A stretch of 54,704 nt of DNA. It comes from an uncultured Bacteroidales bacterium (lineage in GTDB: Bacteria > Bacteroidota > Bacteroidia > Bacteroidales > Muribaculaceae). A program made the position numbers and the translations under genes. Location: the NCBI GenBank assembly GCA_902760865.1, contig CACWID010000020.1, forward strand, positions 1 through 54,704. The letters are read 5' to 3'. This document shows, one piece after another, positions 10,717 through 46,775 of this stretch (its first letter is position 1; the number at the start of each line of letters is the position of its first letter). Below the pieces are notes generated by a model. The model was not told where the DNA came from. It was given only the letters and a program-made list of their open reading frames with translations, and ran no database searches.

Positions 10717-11262
10717 TTATATTATAATCTGAGAGGGTTCTCCATATTCATTAACACCTGGGTCTGATTTCTTGAACTGGAAAAAGATTGGAACCCACGG
10801 AACAAGGATCCACCACCCACTACGGTTGATGTCGTGCATACGACGGACTGATACAGCCAACAAGGGGATAAGGGTTATTAATATCAAAAGACCTCCTGAC
10901 GTAGCAGCAAGCCATAAAAAAATCAAAATAAAAGACCAATATTCACGCCTAGTTGCACGTCCACTAAAATCAGCATACTTTGTAGAGAACGTCTTCCAGA
11001 AGATTGCGCCACACTCGTAGATGTAATGGGCCCAATCTGCTTTAAAATCACATAAGACGACTGTATCTGAAGTGTTTTTAGACTGTGTGGGCTTTTTGAC
11101 AGTTGTAGGATTACTTTGGCTTGTAGGATTGCCTTGATTTGCAGGAGCAGGATTACCTTGATTTACTGGTTTACACTCGCTGGCGGGGTTGCCACACTCT
11201 GGGCAAGCGTCCAAATGATCGTCAAACTCATACCCGCATTCTGTACATAATAGTTTTGCCAT
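10717..11262 (-). CDS. Zinc-ribbon DUF805 membrane protein, first gene of the operon
   Basis: 181 residues from ATG 11262. A GTG at 11289 would add nine residues, but the ATG gives MAKLLCTECG, matching the heads of the sister genes. A zinc ribbon (CTEC, CPEC) is followed by a Gln/Asn/Pro-rich repeat linker (QGNPAPANQGNPTSQSNP) and a DUF805 domain with its hallmark FSTKYADFSGRATRREYWSF, two or three membrane helices and VRRMHDINRSGWW. DUF805 proteins are small inner-membrane proteins of unknown function. It is preceded by the structured leader RNA (11263-11638) and followed 4 bases later by the Sel1 gene. Confidence 0.85.
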   Translation of the reverse strand: MAKLLCTECGYEFDDHLDACPECGNPASECKPVNQGNPAPANQGNPTSQSNPTTVKKPTQSKNTSDTVVLCDFKADWAHYIYECGAIFWKTFSTKYADFSGRATRREYWSFILIFLWLAATSGGLLILITLIPLLAVSVRRMHDINRSGWWILVPWVPIFFQFKKSDPGVNEYGEPSQIII

Positions 11263-11638
11263 CGTTCGGTCTTTAAGATTTTTTGCCACTTGACTCCCGA
11301 AGGGTGGCGTGGGTTTGTTAATGGTTGGTTGTCATAGGCATAAAAAAGAAGCGCGGGAGTCTGATACTGTTACTCGTCCCACACGCTGAGGCTCTTGCAT
11401 TGCCCTTAGTAGTTGAACGAGCAACGCAGAAGCCCACGCCGAATATGCTTATTGCCATCACTGGCAAATATACATATCCCACACAGGACATCTACCGTTG
11501 CTTCATCCTTGACTACTAATTGTGAATTTGCAAGATTCCAGCGTGTCAAGAACAAAGCGCCAATAAACGCCTTTCTATATGTCATGTCGCTCTTTGCCAT
11601 GCACCCGCCACCATCGGTGAACGGATTTCTGCCAAAGA
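11263..11638 (-). ncRNA. Structured leader RNA, copy 1 (candidate DUF805/DUF805b-type motif)
   Basis: Minus strand, from about 8 bases after TATATTTG (11652-11645) to the DUF805 gene, about 376 nt. In order: a domain opening GGCGTTTATTG (11571-11561) with a 14-bp helix, GCUUUGUUCUUGAC with GUCAAGGAUGAAGC; hairpin A (11435-11421 with 11403-11389, 14 of 15 paired); hairpin B (11384-11377 with 11358-11351); and a final hairpin GCCAC/GUGGC (11308-11285) close to the start codon. ACGAGTAAC (11377-11369) can pair with the loop side of hairpin A (11425-11417). The copy at 43828-44204 shares the order and length with different bases in the paired parts. I recall candidate motifs named after DUF805 in Bacteroidota; membership is unverified. 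Confidence 0.7.
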
Positions 11639-11652
11639 ACATCTGCAAATAT
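11465..11652 (-). promoter_or_regulatory. Promoters of the leader RNA and operon
   Basis: TATATTTG at 11652-11645 (minus strand) would start a transcript about 376 nt ahead of the DUF805 ATG, as in the second copy. Another TATATTTG at 11472-11465 would start just before hairpin A and make a shorter leader. Both match the TAnnTTTG consensus; a good -33 TTTG is not obvious for either. Open frames across 11290-11700 look accidental. Confidence 0.5.
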
Positions 11653-11812
11653 AAGCAATATTTTGAGAACTACACCAATTTTAATTCAACTTTTTGTTCA
11701 AAAAATTAAGGGGAGTCGCTGTTTTTTCTTTTCAATCCGATTTACTGAGAGTCAAAAACCGATGATTTCTTTTGGTAATTCAGGAGATTGTTTCTAACTT
11801 TACATTGAATTT

Positions 11813-43812: not shown

Positions 43813-43820
43813 TATTTTTG
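43813..43820 (+). promoter_or_regulatory. Promoter of leader RNA copy 2
   Basis: TATTTTTG, followed by GCAGC as in copy 1 (TATATTTGCAG). The distance from box to the GGCGTTTA element is about 75 bases in both copies. Confidence 0.55.
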
Positions 43821-43827
43821 CAGCAAT

Positions 43828-44204
43828 TCATTGACGGATCCAGGCCGCAGCGGCGACCACAATAACCAACCGCCAGTGAAGACATATTAGATACAGGCGT
43901 TTACTGTAACGCTTTGGTTTTGGCACTCTAAGAACTTCGCAACTTCTTTTATAATCCGTCCAAAACAAAGCAACGGGAACGCCCCTTTGGATGTACTATA
44001 TCCTTCGCTCAGGTCTCCTCATGGAGATTTGGGAGATTTGATATACACATCTTTGTGGGGCTTCGTCGTTGCTCGTTTCAACGGATTTAGGCAACGCGAA
44101 GGCCTTTAGAGTGTGGAACTGAGCAACAGACTTGGCTCCACGCTTTGTATTTACATGGATTAACCTCTAATAATCACCCCTTGGTTGCCTAGAGCCACAA
44201 CCAA
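43828..44204 (+). ncRNA. Structured leader RNA, copy 2, upstream of the restriction-modification gene
   Basis: About 377 nt from the predicted start to the ATG. GGCGTTTACTG (43896-43906) is followed by GCTTTG-GTTTTGG (43911-43923), which pairs with CCAAAAC-AAAGC (43960-43971), and GGCGTT/AACGCC closes it. Hairpin A pairs 44058-44072 with 44091-44105; hairpin B AGAGTGTGGA (44108-44117) pairs fully with TCCACGCTTT (44137-44146). GTTGCTC (44068-44074) can pair with GAGCAAC (44121-44127). A last hairpin TTGGTTG/CAACCAA ends at 44204, directly before the ATG. Paired parts differ in sequence from copy 1 (11263-11638) but keep pairing, so the RNA fold itself appears conserved. Confidence 0.72.
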
Positions 44205-46775
44205 ATGATGTTATATGTTATGTTGAAATACAAATTGGAAAGCGATGTTGATGATTATGTAAAAGCATATTTATTTTCCTTAGGATTAAAAAAATTGCTT
44301 GATTTTAACGAAAAATCAAGTATGTCAAACTACATGAAAGAGTCTTTAAAAGGCTCGGCTAAAACCGCTTCAAAAACAAATTATGGGCAGCCCGATTTTA
44401 CTTGCGAGAAATACGATATACCTGTAATTATAGAGAATAAATTAAGCAATGATAAGCACTTAGCTTATAATAGTTCGGGCATAAAAACGGACGAAAAGTC
44501 CGTAAGAGATTACGCAGTAAATGGTGCTATTTACTATGCTCGTAATATGATTGCTTCTAAGAAATATAATGAAGTAGTTGCTATTGGGATTTCTGGCGAA
44601 AGTGAAGAAGATATAAACATATCCGTGTATTATGTGTTTTCAGCAACACTGCCCCCAAAATATATGTCAAAATACACAAACCTTAATTTCTTACAAAATG
44701 AGCAAAGTTTCAAAGCTTTCTATAATGACGCAACTATTACTGAACAGGAACGTCACAAGATATTAATTTCCACAAGAAATGAAATCTTACGTCAAGCAAA
44801 AAAGCTCAACATCTTAATGAATAATTGTAATATCGGTGTCGAACAACGTGTCGTTTATGTATCAGGTATGTTGCTATCGATGCAAGATGTCATTGACAAA
44901 GCTGGCAATGTCATTGATTATGGTTTAACCAAAGACGATTTAAAAGGCATAGAAACCGAACAAAAACGTGACAGTATACAGATCATTTCGCACATTGAAG
45001 AATACATTGAACAGAAAGATATTGATTCGGTCAAGAAAAAAATAATGATTGAACAATTCAAAAATTCCATTTCACTCGACCCAAGCCGTGATATACCTAT
45101 AGAATGTGATAAAATAGTTGGTTCGTTGTTGAAAGATAAATCCTCTATTACTAAACAAGTATTCAGTTTTCTTTATGAATATGTTTACAAAGCAATTGAT
45201 ATGACACACGGTGCATTAGACATAATGGCCGAAATGTATTCAACATTTTTGAAATATGCACTTAGTGATGGTGCCTCACTTGGAAAAGTCTTAACACCAC
45301 CATATATAACAAACTTGATGGCAAAAATACTTGATATCAATAAAGATAGCAAAGTGATGGATTTAGCAACAGGTTCTGCTGCTTTCTTGGTTGCATCAAT
45401 GGATTTGATGATAAACGATGCAAACAAAAAACATGGTAAAGGAACAACATTTGCAAATCAAGCAATTGAGGACATTAAGAAAAAACAACTTCTCGGAATC
45501 GAAGTTGATGCAAAAATGTACACTCTCGCAGCTGCAAATATGTTGTTACGTGGTGATGGAAGCTCAAATATTATCAAAGCTGATTCATTCACAACACCAA
45601 AACAAATATTTAGTGATTTCGGTGCGAATAGATTATTATTAAATCCTCCTTTTTCTTATAAATTTTTCGGTTTGCCTTTTTTCGAATTCGGTTTAGATAA
45701 TATGCAAGAGGGCGGTATAGGCGCATTAATCATTCAAGATTCAGCAGGCTCTGGAAAAGCAAAAAGTGTAACAAAAAAAATACTGAGCAAACATACTATG
45801 TTAGCAAGTATCAAAATGCCTGCTGATTTGTTTATTCCTAATGCAATCGTTCAAACAAGTATATATATTTTCAAAGCTAAACGTCCACACGATTTTGAAC
45901 ATGATATTGTGAAATTCATTGATTTCAGAAATGACGGTTACAAACGCACAAAACGCATAATTAAAGAAATTGACAACCCGTCTGATCGCTATAATGACAT
46001 TTATCTGATATATAAGTTAGGTAAAAATGCTGTTCGTAATGAATCTTTCCATGCTAATTTATGGAATTTAGACAAAGTGTATTGCGAAGATACGATTTCA
46101 GAAAAAGGTGATGATTGGAATTTTGAGAAACATATTCAACATGTTACTGTACCTACAGAAGAAGAATTTACAAGTGCTTTAAAGAAAACAGAATCGTGGA
46201 ACATATCACATATAATAAACAGTTTTGATATAGACGTTTTATCAGCGATTCGTGCTCCTTTTGGTTTTAAAGATTTTCCAGCAGGTAAAATATTCACTAT
46301 CAAATCAGCAAAACCAAGTTATGATAAAATCAAACTTAAGCCTGTAGTCGATCATAAAAAATCTTATGATTATATCACCCGCACTTCTGAGAACAATGGT
46401 ATCTGTGACGTGACATCATTCATCTCTGAAAAGGGCATACAAGAAGCAGGTACATTCAGTCTTGGTTTGATGCAAAAAATTTTTTTCTTGCGTAAACGAG
46501 AATGGTATGCAGGACAATACGTGAAAGTTGTTACCTGTATAGATGATGTCAGCTATGACACAAAAGTTTATTTGCAAACCGTTTTGAATGGTTTGACCTC
46601 ATTATTACATTCCGTGCTTGTAAGGGATATTGAAAAAACATTTGTAAAAGCAAAATTACGATTGCCGATTAAACAAGACGGTACGATTGATTATGATTGG
46701 ATGGCAGAATACGTTGTTACAGGCCGTTCATTGATAAAATCAAAATTGATTGAATGTGGACTGATAAATATTTGA
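44205..46775 (+). CDS. Single-chain restriction-modification enzyme (Type IIG-like)
   Basis: 856 residues. The N-terminal part (about 1-150) has a PD-(D/E)xK-like nuclease site, QPDFTCEKYDIPVIIENK, with PD and E-n-K about 15 residues apart. A helical linker leads to an N6-adenine methyltransferase like HsdM: SAM motif VMDLATGSAAFLVASM (about 383-398), catalytic NPPF (about 480). The C-terminus (about 660-856) looks like a target-recognition domain ending in RLPIKQDGTIDYDWMAEYV. It would cut and methylate DNA with one protein. Strongly AT-rich, isolated, without a separate specificity or methylase gene: probably acquired. The ATG at 44220 is an alternative start. Confidence 0.82.
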   Translation: MMLYVMLKYKLESDVDDYVKAYLFSLGLKKLLDFNEKSSMSNYMKESLKGSAKTASKTNYGQPDFTCEKYDIPVIIENKLSNDKHLAYNSSGIKTDEKSVRDYAVNGAIYYARNMIASKKYNEVVAIGISGESEEDINISVYYVFSATLPPKYMSKYTNLNFLQNEQSFKAFYNDATITEQERHKILISTRNEILRQAKKLNILMNNCNIGVEQRVVYVSGMLLSMQDVIDKAGNVIDYGLTKDDLKGIETEQKRDSIQIISHIEEYIEQKDIDSVKKKIMIEQFKNSISLDPSRDIPIECDKIVGSLLKDKSSITKQVFSFLYEYVYKAIDMTHGALDIMAEMYSTFLKYALSDGASLGKVLTPPYITNLMAKILDINKDSKVMDLATGSAAFLVASMDLMINDANKKHGKGTTFANQAIEDIKKKQLLGIEVDAKMYTLAAANMLLRGDGSSNIIKADSFTTPKQIFSDFGANRLLLNPPFSYKFFGLPFFEFGLDNMQEGGIGALIIQDSAGSGKAKSVTKKILSKHTMLASIKMPADLFIPNAIVQTSIYIFKAKRPHDFEHDIVKFIDFRNDGYKRTKRIIKEIDNPSDRYNDIYLIYKLGKNAVRNESFHANLWNLDKVYCEDTISEKGDDWNFEKHIQHVTVPTEEEFTSALKKTESWNISHIINSFDIDVLSAIRAPFGFKDFPAGKIFTIKSAKPSYDKIKLKPVVDHKKSYDYITRTSENNGICDVTSFISEKGIQEAGTFSLGLMQKIFFLRKREWYAGQYVKVVTCIDDVSYDTKVYLQTVLNGLTSLLHSVLVRDIEKTFVKAKLRLPIKQDGTIDYDWMAEYVVTGRSLIKSKLIECGLINI

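Follow-up and report, generated by a model that had tools for sequence, protein, structure and literature searches.

The window, by which we mean the whole 54,704-nucleotide stretch of Muribaculaceae DNA analyzed here, contains two leader regions: copy 1 on the minus strand (11638-11263) and copy 2 on the plus strand (43828-44204). Copy 1 precedes a same-strand run of genes encoding a DUF805 protein, Sel1-repeat zinc-ribbon proteins, and an L,D-transpeptidase, and the translation of the DUF805 gene reveals an N-terminal zinc-ribbon-like CxxC pair. Copy 2 precedes a gene for a type IIG restriction enzyme-methyltransferase (Table 1). An earlier note on this DNA had described both leaders as structured RNAs that carry the same elements in the same order, and our analysis bore this out. 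Alignment of the two copies placed their elements in the same order, and the predicted folding energies of copy 1 (−132.9 kcal/mol, z −4.6) and copy 2 (−128.8 kcal/mol, z −5.5) lay far below those of shuffled sequences, with none of 100 dinucleotide shuffles folding as well in either case. When the genome from which the window derives was searched at E ≤1 with a model of 107 positions of the leader's 3′ part, built from 48 copies (model R1), only the two window copies were found. A BLAST search of the same genome at E ≤10 returned 17 weak places, including the two window copies, and we found no support for the six other loci that were examined.

Table 1. Positions of promoter, RNA, and gene features of the two leaders in the window.
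Feature	Copy	Position	Strand	Detail
−7 promoter box TATATTTG	1	11646..11653	−	read from sequence; TAnnTTTG just before leader
5′ hairpin P0	1	11589..11640	−	at predicted transcription start; −27.2 kcal/mol, z −4.7
Hairpin P1 (GCGU/GCGC)	1	11557..11570	−	loop pairs with 11493-11496 (PK1); covariation
Helix PX	1	11504..11554	−	11554-11547 with 11511-11504; named in earlier note
Long-range helix P2	1	11381..11546	−	ACACGCUG 11546-11539 with CAGCGUGU 11388-11381; z up to 115
P3k	1	11393..11535	−	UCUUGC 11535-11530 with GCAAGA 11398-11393; z 18-97 in 5/6 pairs
Helix P4	1	11406..11520	−	11520-11513 with 11412-11406; z 15-54, 75% of cells paired
P5	1	11421..11501	−	GCAAC 11501-11497 with GUUGC 11425-11421; 97% of cells paired, nearly invariant
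PK2	1	11369..11425	−	GUUGCUCGU 11425-11417 with ACGAGUAAC 11377-11369 in terminator loop
Intrinsic terminator hairpin GUGUGGGA/UCCCGCGC	1	11351..11384	−	−11.3 kcal/mol on 39 nt
U-rich tract past terminator (UUCUUUUUUA)	1	11341..11350	−	read from sequence
P7	1	11292..11361	−	GACUCCCG 11361-11354 (terminator 3′ side) with CGGGAGUC 11299-11292 upstream of start codon
First gene: DUF805 protein	1	10717..11262	−	Pfam PF05656, E 4e-19
−7 promoter box TATTTTTG	2	43813..43820	+	read from sequence; TAnnTTTG just before leader
5′ hairpin P0	2	43827..43880	+	−12.9 kcal/mol; z −1.2, alone not significant
Helix PX UGGUUUUG/CCAAAACA	2	43915..43967	+	mapped on sequence
Helix P2	2	43923..44114	+	GCACUCUAA 43923-43931 with UUAGAGUGU 44106-44114
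P3k	2	43935..44101	+	CUUCGC 43935-43940 with GCGAAG 44096-44101
P4	2	43951..44088	+	AUAAUCCG 43951-43958 with ACGGAUUU 44081-44088
PK2	2	44068..44127	+	GUUGCUCGU 44068-44076 with ACUGAGCAAC 44118-44127
Terminator hairpin GUGUGGAA/CUCCACGC (44111-44143) and U-rich stretch	2	44111..44152	+	−17.0 kcal/mol
P7	2	44133..44197	+	UGGCUC 44133-44138 with GAGCCA 44192-44197
First gene: type IIG restriction enzyme-methyltransferase, 856 aa	2	44205..46775	+	Pfam N6_Mtase; PADLOC REase_MTase_IIG, E 8e-185

The fold was examined in an alignment of leader copies. The palindromic element drew antisense matches into the profile iterations, in which only the best match per locus was therefore kept. Among 314 loci, 304 gave a match (307 matches in all). 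Removal of matches scoring below 90 bits, incomplete sequences, and exact duplicates left 278 copies, and removal of near-identical ones (≥88%) left 252, a set that is biased toward consensus-like copies since many of the loci were either best R1 matches or came from a listing of exact core-pattern matches. Covariation was scored over 38,503 column pairs of these 252 nonredundant copies, in which the core of the leader spans about 280 alignment columns.

The strongest covariation formed helices, with robust z-scores of up to 115, and included pseudoknots, a kissing-loop-type pairing, and a long-range helix. This last helix, P2, gave z-scores of 31 to 115 with the exception of one near-invariant pair, and P3k gave 18 to 97 with the exception of one of its six pairs. 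The pairs of P4 scored 15 to 54, with 74-75% of cells paired, while hairpins P3h and P6 reached 24 and 19, respectively, and the pairing of the P1 loop with the bases after GCAAC (PK1) reached 25. In PK2, 97% of cells were paired and four of the nine pairs scored 6.6 to 10.4, these lying in its variable half; the GUUGC half was nearly invariant. The terminator hairpin (T) reached z-scores of 15 and an apical helix 10. The named helices accounted for 20 of the 30 top-scoring pairs and 28 of the top 60, and several of the others shared a column with a helix. The same picture emerged when we counted double changes in 120 sampled copies, 80 of which were aligned. In the main fold of 43 pairs, 90.8% of cells were paired, compared to 75.4% after shuffling and 37-52% after sliding, and 36 of the pairs changed on both sides (25 when shuffled, 17-27 when slid), giving 602 double-changed cells vs. 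200 in shuffled and at most 130 in slid controls. For PK1, PK2, and T taken together, 94.8% of cells were paired (91.2% shuffled, 38-51% slid), with 56 double-changed cells vs. 20 after shuffling. For the nearly invariant P5, 22 of 500 shuffles matched its doubly changed pair count.

Thus, the leaders possess a conserved, covarying fold in the 5′ leader, as would be expected of a riboswitch. The helix that the earlier note had singled out, written UUCUUGAC/GUCAAGGA in copy 1 and GUUUUGG/CCAAAAC in copy 2, corresponds to PX, where covariation reached a z-score of 18 and 89% of cells were paired across the 252 copies. The note had concluded from this contrast that selection acts on the structure and had named a lack of covariation in wider alignments as the result that would count against it; the very strong covariation across the 252 nonredundant copies strongly supports that conclusion. 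The terminator, the long-range helices, the pseudoknots, and the existence of a multicopy family in front of diverse genes go beyond what that note had described. P2, P3k, and P4 are mutually nested yet cross PX, which means that the RNA either is rich in pseudoknots or switches from one fold to another. In copy 1, P3k links the loops of hairpins P3h (11538-11524) and P6 (11404-11390).

Each leader appears to have its own promoter. The sequence TAnnTTTG, which we take to be the Bacteroidota −7 promoter box, was found in the preceding 110 nt for 217 of 247 copies, compared with 118 of 937 background windows. In 130 of the 247 copies, 42-54 nt separated it from the model start, which places it immediately ahead of hairpin P0. 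P0 itself had at least five terminal pairs in 181 of 197 copies (117 of 197 when shuffled). From this arrangement, we expect the transcript to begin with P0, only a few bases downstream of the TAnnTTTG box. The distance of about 75 nt between promoter and element that had been proposed earlier fits the interval from the box to P1 (11646 to 11570) but not the start of the transcript, which is expected at P0, a few bases past the box. We could not match a proposed 14-bp helix to any one helix for certain; the P0 stems of copy 1 comprise 8, 2, 6, and 4 pairs.

At its 3′ end, the leader has the makings of an intrinsic terminator, with a G+C-rich hairpin followed by a U-run. The hairpin had a median energy of −10.3 kcal/mol, vs. 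−6.1 kcal/mol for letter shuffles, and at least five of the eight nucleotides after it were U in 244 of 252 copies. Of the 48 copies in the genus set, which alone was used for this count, 47 had the downstream gene in the orientation of the leader. In the 252-copy set, where only the plus strand was searched, a gene was found for 238 copies, starting a median of 61 nt past the U-run; at least some of the 14 copies lacking one were cut by the end of the contig or locus. We also came across a natural copy from which the middle is deleted (L042:3519-3694, minus strand). The promoter box, P0, and a P1-like hairpin are still present in it, as are the terminator loop, the 3′ arm, and the U-run; the terminator 5′ arm is missing, so read-through would be expected.

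Several strands of the leader have more than one potential partner. P2 and the terminator share bases, and in copy 1, the last four bases of P2, GUGU (11384-11381), also open the terminator 5′ arm. Alignment column 235 covaried with its partner in P2 (z 31) as well as with its partner in the terminator (z 14); both pairings were possible in 199 of 251 copies, and only the one with the P2 partner in 37. Column 234, which also belongs to both P2 and T, could form both pairings in 243 of 251 copies but is nearly invariant and therefore little informative. In silico, the leader thus contains an expression platform that competes with the fold. The sequence GUUGC (columns 191-195), which PK2 and P5 have in common in copy 1, is complementary both to the upstream GCAAC (P5) and to GYRAC in the terminator loop (PK2), and it was able to pair with both partners in 223-244 copies per position. 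The case that P5 and PK2 may be mutually exclusive comes from this complementarity and from pairing-compatible changes, covariation being weak here. Alternatively, PK2 and T might coexist as a single pseudoknot, with PK2 stabilizing the terminator instead of competing with it.

In many copies, a strand shortly before the gene could base-pair with the 3′ side of the terminator; this pairing, P7, can form only once the terminator has been passed. A copy's own P7 pairings scored at least 7 in 77 of 249 copies, whereas 20 swaps gave 25 such copies on average and 31 at most; a score of at least 6 was reached in 156 of 249, compared with 65 in the swaps. P7 appears to be clear in a minority of copies (those 77) and weaker in the others. 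Among the 77, the distance from the hairpin to the start of the partner strand was 22-56 nt (5th to 95th percentile), and the strand ended a median of 25 nt before the start codon (n = 60). With P2 sharing the 5′ arm and P7 pairing with the 3′ side, each side of the terminator has a second partner. Both window copies also have a local hairpin just before the start codon (11285-11308, GCCAC/GUGGC, in copy 1; 44181-44204, UUGGUUG/CAACCAA, in copy 2), and because the P7 strand shows in the loop of this hairpin, P7 may be a kissing contact.

We then looked at how widely the leader is distributed. In the Muribaculaceae, the family to which the window belongs, model R1 matched 180 of 198 sampled genomes, with 28 of 30 genera represented. 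When the genus was searched by BLAST with copy 1, relatives turned up in 28 of 61 genomes, the window's own included. The rest of the order was sparser, with R1 matches in 25 of 247 sampled genomes, of which four (including the window's own) belong to the same family and 21 carry 13 other family labels. The phylum sample was nearly empty, its 3 matching genomes out of 395 being the window's own, one from the same order, and one that is unconfirmed. Absences in these large family, order, and phylum searches are soft, as 9 to 19 candidates were scored per genome. Neither genome G395, which lies outside the order and matched R1 at E 7.5e-4, nor two weak places in G407 gave a match to the full-length profile. 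In a smaller re-search, two of these three were borderline (12-14 bits, E 0.001-0.004), and we treat them as unconfirmed, not as excluded. We also scored up to 150 candidates in each of 15 chosen genomes, comprising ten that were rich in the family search, one single-contig genome, and four without matches. In the richest, 19 matches passed E 1e-5, including some truncated by the end of a contig, and the four genomes without R1 matches still had none.

Named carriers, among the matches listed, include Paraprevotella clara YIT 11840 (nine matches), Prevotella lacticifex (seven), Prevotella denticola (two), Hallella mizrahii (two, one of them weak), and Phocaeicola oris (one), and the record titles of the matches listed show that the carrier group is common in gut and rumen samples. 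A near full-length copy followed by a hypothetical gene was present on plasmids of Phocaeicola dorei CL06T03C03 and Phocaeicola vulgatus CL10T00C06 (L347:3850-4100 and L348:3850-4100). The only match to the core pattern on a viral contig (L314:371-637) has a leader 84% identical to copy 1, followed by a GTP-binding elongation-factor-like gene. In one genome, two copies lie about 1 kb apart in divergent orientation (G464:C11:1252722-1253973). In three others (G469, G612, and G511), several copies sit at contig ends (e.g., G469:C75:1-64), as if the repeats had broken the assembly, and true copy numbers may therefore differ.

The genes behind the leaders were diverse. We ran Pfam on 191 of the 238 downstream genes, namely those starting 20-130 nt past the U-run and encoding at least 60 amino acids; the genes had been picked by a simple open-frame rule, and some may be wrong. 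The 191 genes were widely scattered, the largest family listed being LRR_5 (BspA-type leucine-rich repeat) with 16 members, and they also included restriction-modification and other defense-type proteins, kinases, and glycosyltransferases. A common pathway, as would be expected downstream of a riboswitch, was not found among them, and no ligand is therefore suggested. DUF805 was found once among 90 genes in one scan and was absent from the 25 families listed for the other 101, so the link between the leader and DUF805 genes looks incidental. At four loci (L027, L033, L077, and L136), the leader lies in front of a small protein containing LQSRREFF or LQSRRDFF. These proteins resemble the precursors of peptide natural products, and at L033 the second gene has a CxxxCxxC radical-SAM-like motif.

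Closely related leaders usually had unrelated genes: among 44 leader pairs at least 80% identical, only 6 preceded detectably homologous genes (BLASTP E ≤1e-3, with proteins cut at 330 amino acids). Some pairs do keep leader and gene together (e.g., L144 and L148). In 69 leader pairs that were at least 77% identical and had dissimilar genes (no BLASTP match at E 1), homology ended 25-63 nt before the start codon (interquartile range), and DNA homology started a median of +31 nt from the promoter box (interquartile range 0 to +61), that is, between the box and the end of the 5′ hairpin. These homology edges, together with the 6 of 44 pairs, indicate that the leader is re-used independently of the gene. 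It seems to behave as a portable cassette, although a homology start at a median of 31 nt past the box leaves the box outside the demonstrated cassette.

Comparison with described RNAs did not yield a name for the leader. Of the families in Rfam 15, none reached its gathering score in either leader; at E ≤10, copy 1 matched only ToxI, mir-3478, and MIR4371 and copy 2 only mir-80, all far below gathering scores, and the ToxI match sits in the promoter region, outside the leader. The loci of 20 relatives gave two Rfam matches at E ≤1, both outside the element. DUF805 and DUF805b are proposed cis-regulatory RNAs of Bacteroidota found near DUF805 genes, and the DUF805 motifs were reportedly described in 2017. 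The earlier note had raised membership in one of these families; our results gave no support for this, while they strongly supported a structured leader under selection. The DUF805b model (RF02914, 35 positions) had no match in the window's genome or in either leader at E ≤10; 14 control genomes also lacked a match, so this result shows only that the leader RNA does not match the model. There was likewise no DUF805 match among 4227 Rfam families, where we assume a DUF805 model to be present. The likeness to DUF805b is that of a Bacteroidota cis-regulatory RNA near a DUF805 gene, but the leader core spans about 280 alignment columns and mostly has other genes downstream.

Two RNAs from the literature invite comparison by description only. 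HMP2_4205 is a palindromic element of 132 bp, mostly from Bacteroidetes, with a predicted terminator and located near tetratricopeptide genes (Fremin and Bhatt 2021, PMC8040213), and a partial overlap with the leader family is possible. The Bacteroides-2 motif is given in Weinberg et al. 2010 (PMC2864571) as a candidate structured Bacteroides RNA from one sequenced organism, which has no Rfam number in the table and is grouped with noncoding RNAs unaffiliated with mRNAs; that description would set it apart from our family. In the literature searched, whose coverage was partial, we found no publication that names the leader RNA. Relative to Rfam 15 and this partial literature, and leaving aside HMP2_4205 and Bacteroides-2, the family is apparently undescribed.

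We considered several other explanations for these sequences. The leader could be the target of a NusG-paralogue (UpxY/LoaP-like) processive antiterminator or another RNA-binding protein and so serve as a platform instead of a ligand sensor. A single trans factor would explain how one RNA could control many unrelated genes. In Bacteroides fragilis, according to PMC7819879, UpxY proteins keep transcription from ending early within the 5′ leaders that precede upxY. The leaders of UpxY-controlled capsule loci would resemble ours in premature termination in the 5′ leader of Bacteroidota genes. Our family differs from these in having one shared fold before diverse genes. Three NusG-domain genes, confirmed with Pfam, were noticed by eye, in no systematic count, among the 238 first downstream genes. 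In addition, the fold is far more elaborate than the simple site that usually suffices for a protein, and we consider this explanation unlikely. A second alternative, a self-contained small RNA gene that merely happens to lie upstream of other genes, seems rather improbable. Having its own promoter box and terminator and being multicopy would suit such a gene, but the next gene shares the leader's strand in 47 of 48 copies and begins a median of 61 nt further on, the region past the terminator is matched through P7 to the terminator of its own copy, and the terminator and P2 share bases; orientation, spacing, and P7 all make an independent transcript unlikely.

A DNA-level repeat, such as a recombination or insertion site whose palindromes mimic RNA structure, would likewise be dispersed, palindromic, and portable, and the copies on two Phocaeicola plasmids and one viral contig would fit it. 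A DNA site would not be expected to have long-range covarying helices, G-U-compatible changes, a promoter at a set position, or a fixed orientation to the gene, and we judge this explanation highly improbable. We are equally skeptical of attenuation by a leader peptide, in which ribosomes would stall while translating a short frame. Start-like codons recur at eight positions, each in more than 40% of copies, and an ATG frame of at least 25 codons is present in 206 of 252, but the frames that follow all eight positions vary from fewer than 10 to more than 50 codons (10th to 90th percentile), and no open frame of conserved length was found in the leader across the 252 copies. As for the leader being the DUF805/DUF805b motif itself, the DUF805 gene behind copy 1 speaks for it, and the unmatched RF02914 and the weak matches of the leaders to other families speak against it, leaving this identity hardly any likelihood.

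The explanation we favor is that the leader, an RNA of roughly 300 nt, belongs to a new family of cis-acting, pseudoknotted attenuator RNAs and is probably a transcription attenuator with competing folds, as judged from comparative sequence evidence. Transcription would begin a few bases past the TAnnTTTG box, and about 250 nt would fold into a core consisting of P0, P1, PX, P2, P3k, P4, P5, PK1, and PK2, with the terminator T following. In the presumed OFF state, T would form and RNA polymerase would stop. In the presumed ON state, the folded core would hold the 5′ side of T by means of P2 and PK2, allowing the polymerase to read through, after which P7 could capture the 3′ side of T and keep the message open. 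The choice between the states would fall to a common cell-wide signal, perhaps a small molecule, perhaps a protein that binds RNA or acts in antitermination. Since the leader carries the control itself, it could be placed before any gene.

Such a device would have parallels among known attenuators. In some attenuating riboswitches, e.g., adenine-type ON switches, an aptamer helix shares a strand with the terminator, and our leader similarly has a covarying core, one helix of which overlaps the 5′ arm of the intrinsic terminator behind it. Unlike in the adenine-type switches, the genes behind our leader share no evident pathway, and P7 is able to capture the terminator 3′ side. T-box leaders are also large and structured, with a terminator and competing pairings, but Rfam, whose library we take to include the T-box model, gave no T-box match in the leaders or in the relatives' loci, and, among the families listed, the downstream genes are not those of amino-acid metabolism.

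We tentatively propose, as a serious possibility, that a single unnamed RNA sensor-attenuator forms a plug-in network in Prevotella-type Bacteroidales. A cassette would have been copied before unrelated accessory genes (those for restriction enzymes, phage defense, adhesin-like proteins, capsule, and peptides), placing them under one shared cellular signal, with a terminator that would be dismantled from both sides. The lack of an evident shared pathway downstream points to a signal that is global or else to an antitermination factor of general action. Regulatory RNAs of such size and complexity are rare, and with matches in 180 of 198 family genomes and up to 19 in a single genome, this family would amount to a large hidden layer of gene control. 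Cultured carriers, including Paraprevotella clara YIT 11840 and the plasmid-bearing P. vulgatus CL10T00C06 and P. dorei CL06T03C03, make the proposal directly testable. More broadly, the family suggests how newly acquired genes may join existing control, namely by gaining a ready-made attenuator.
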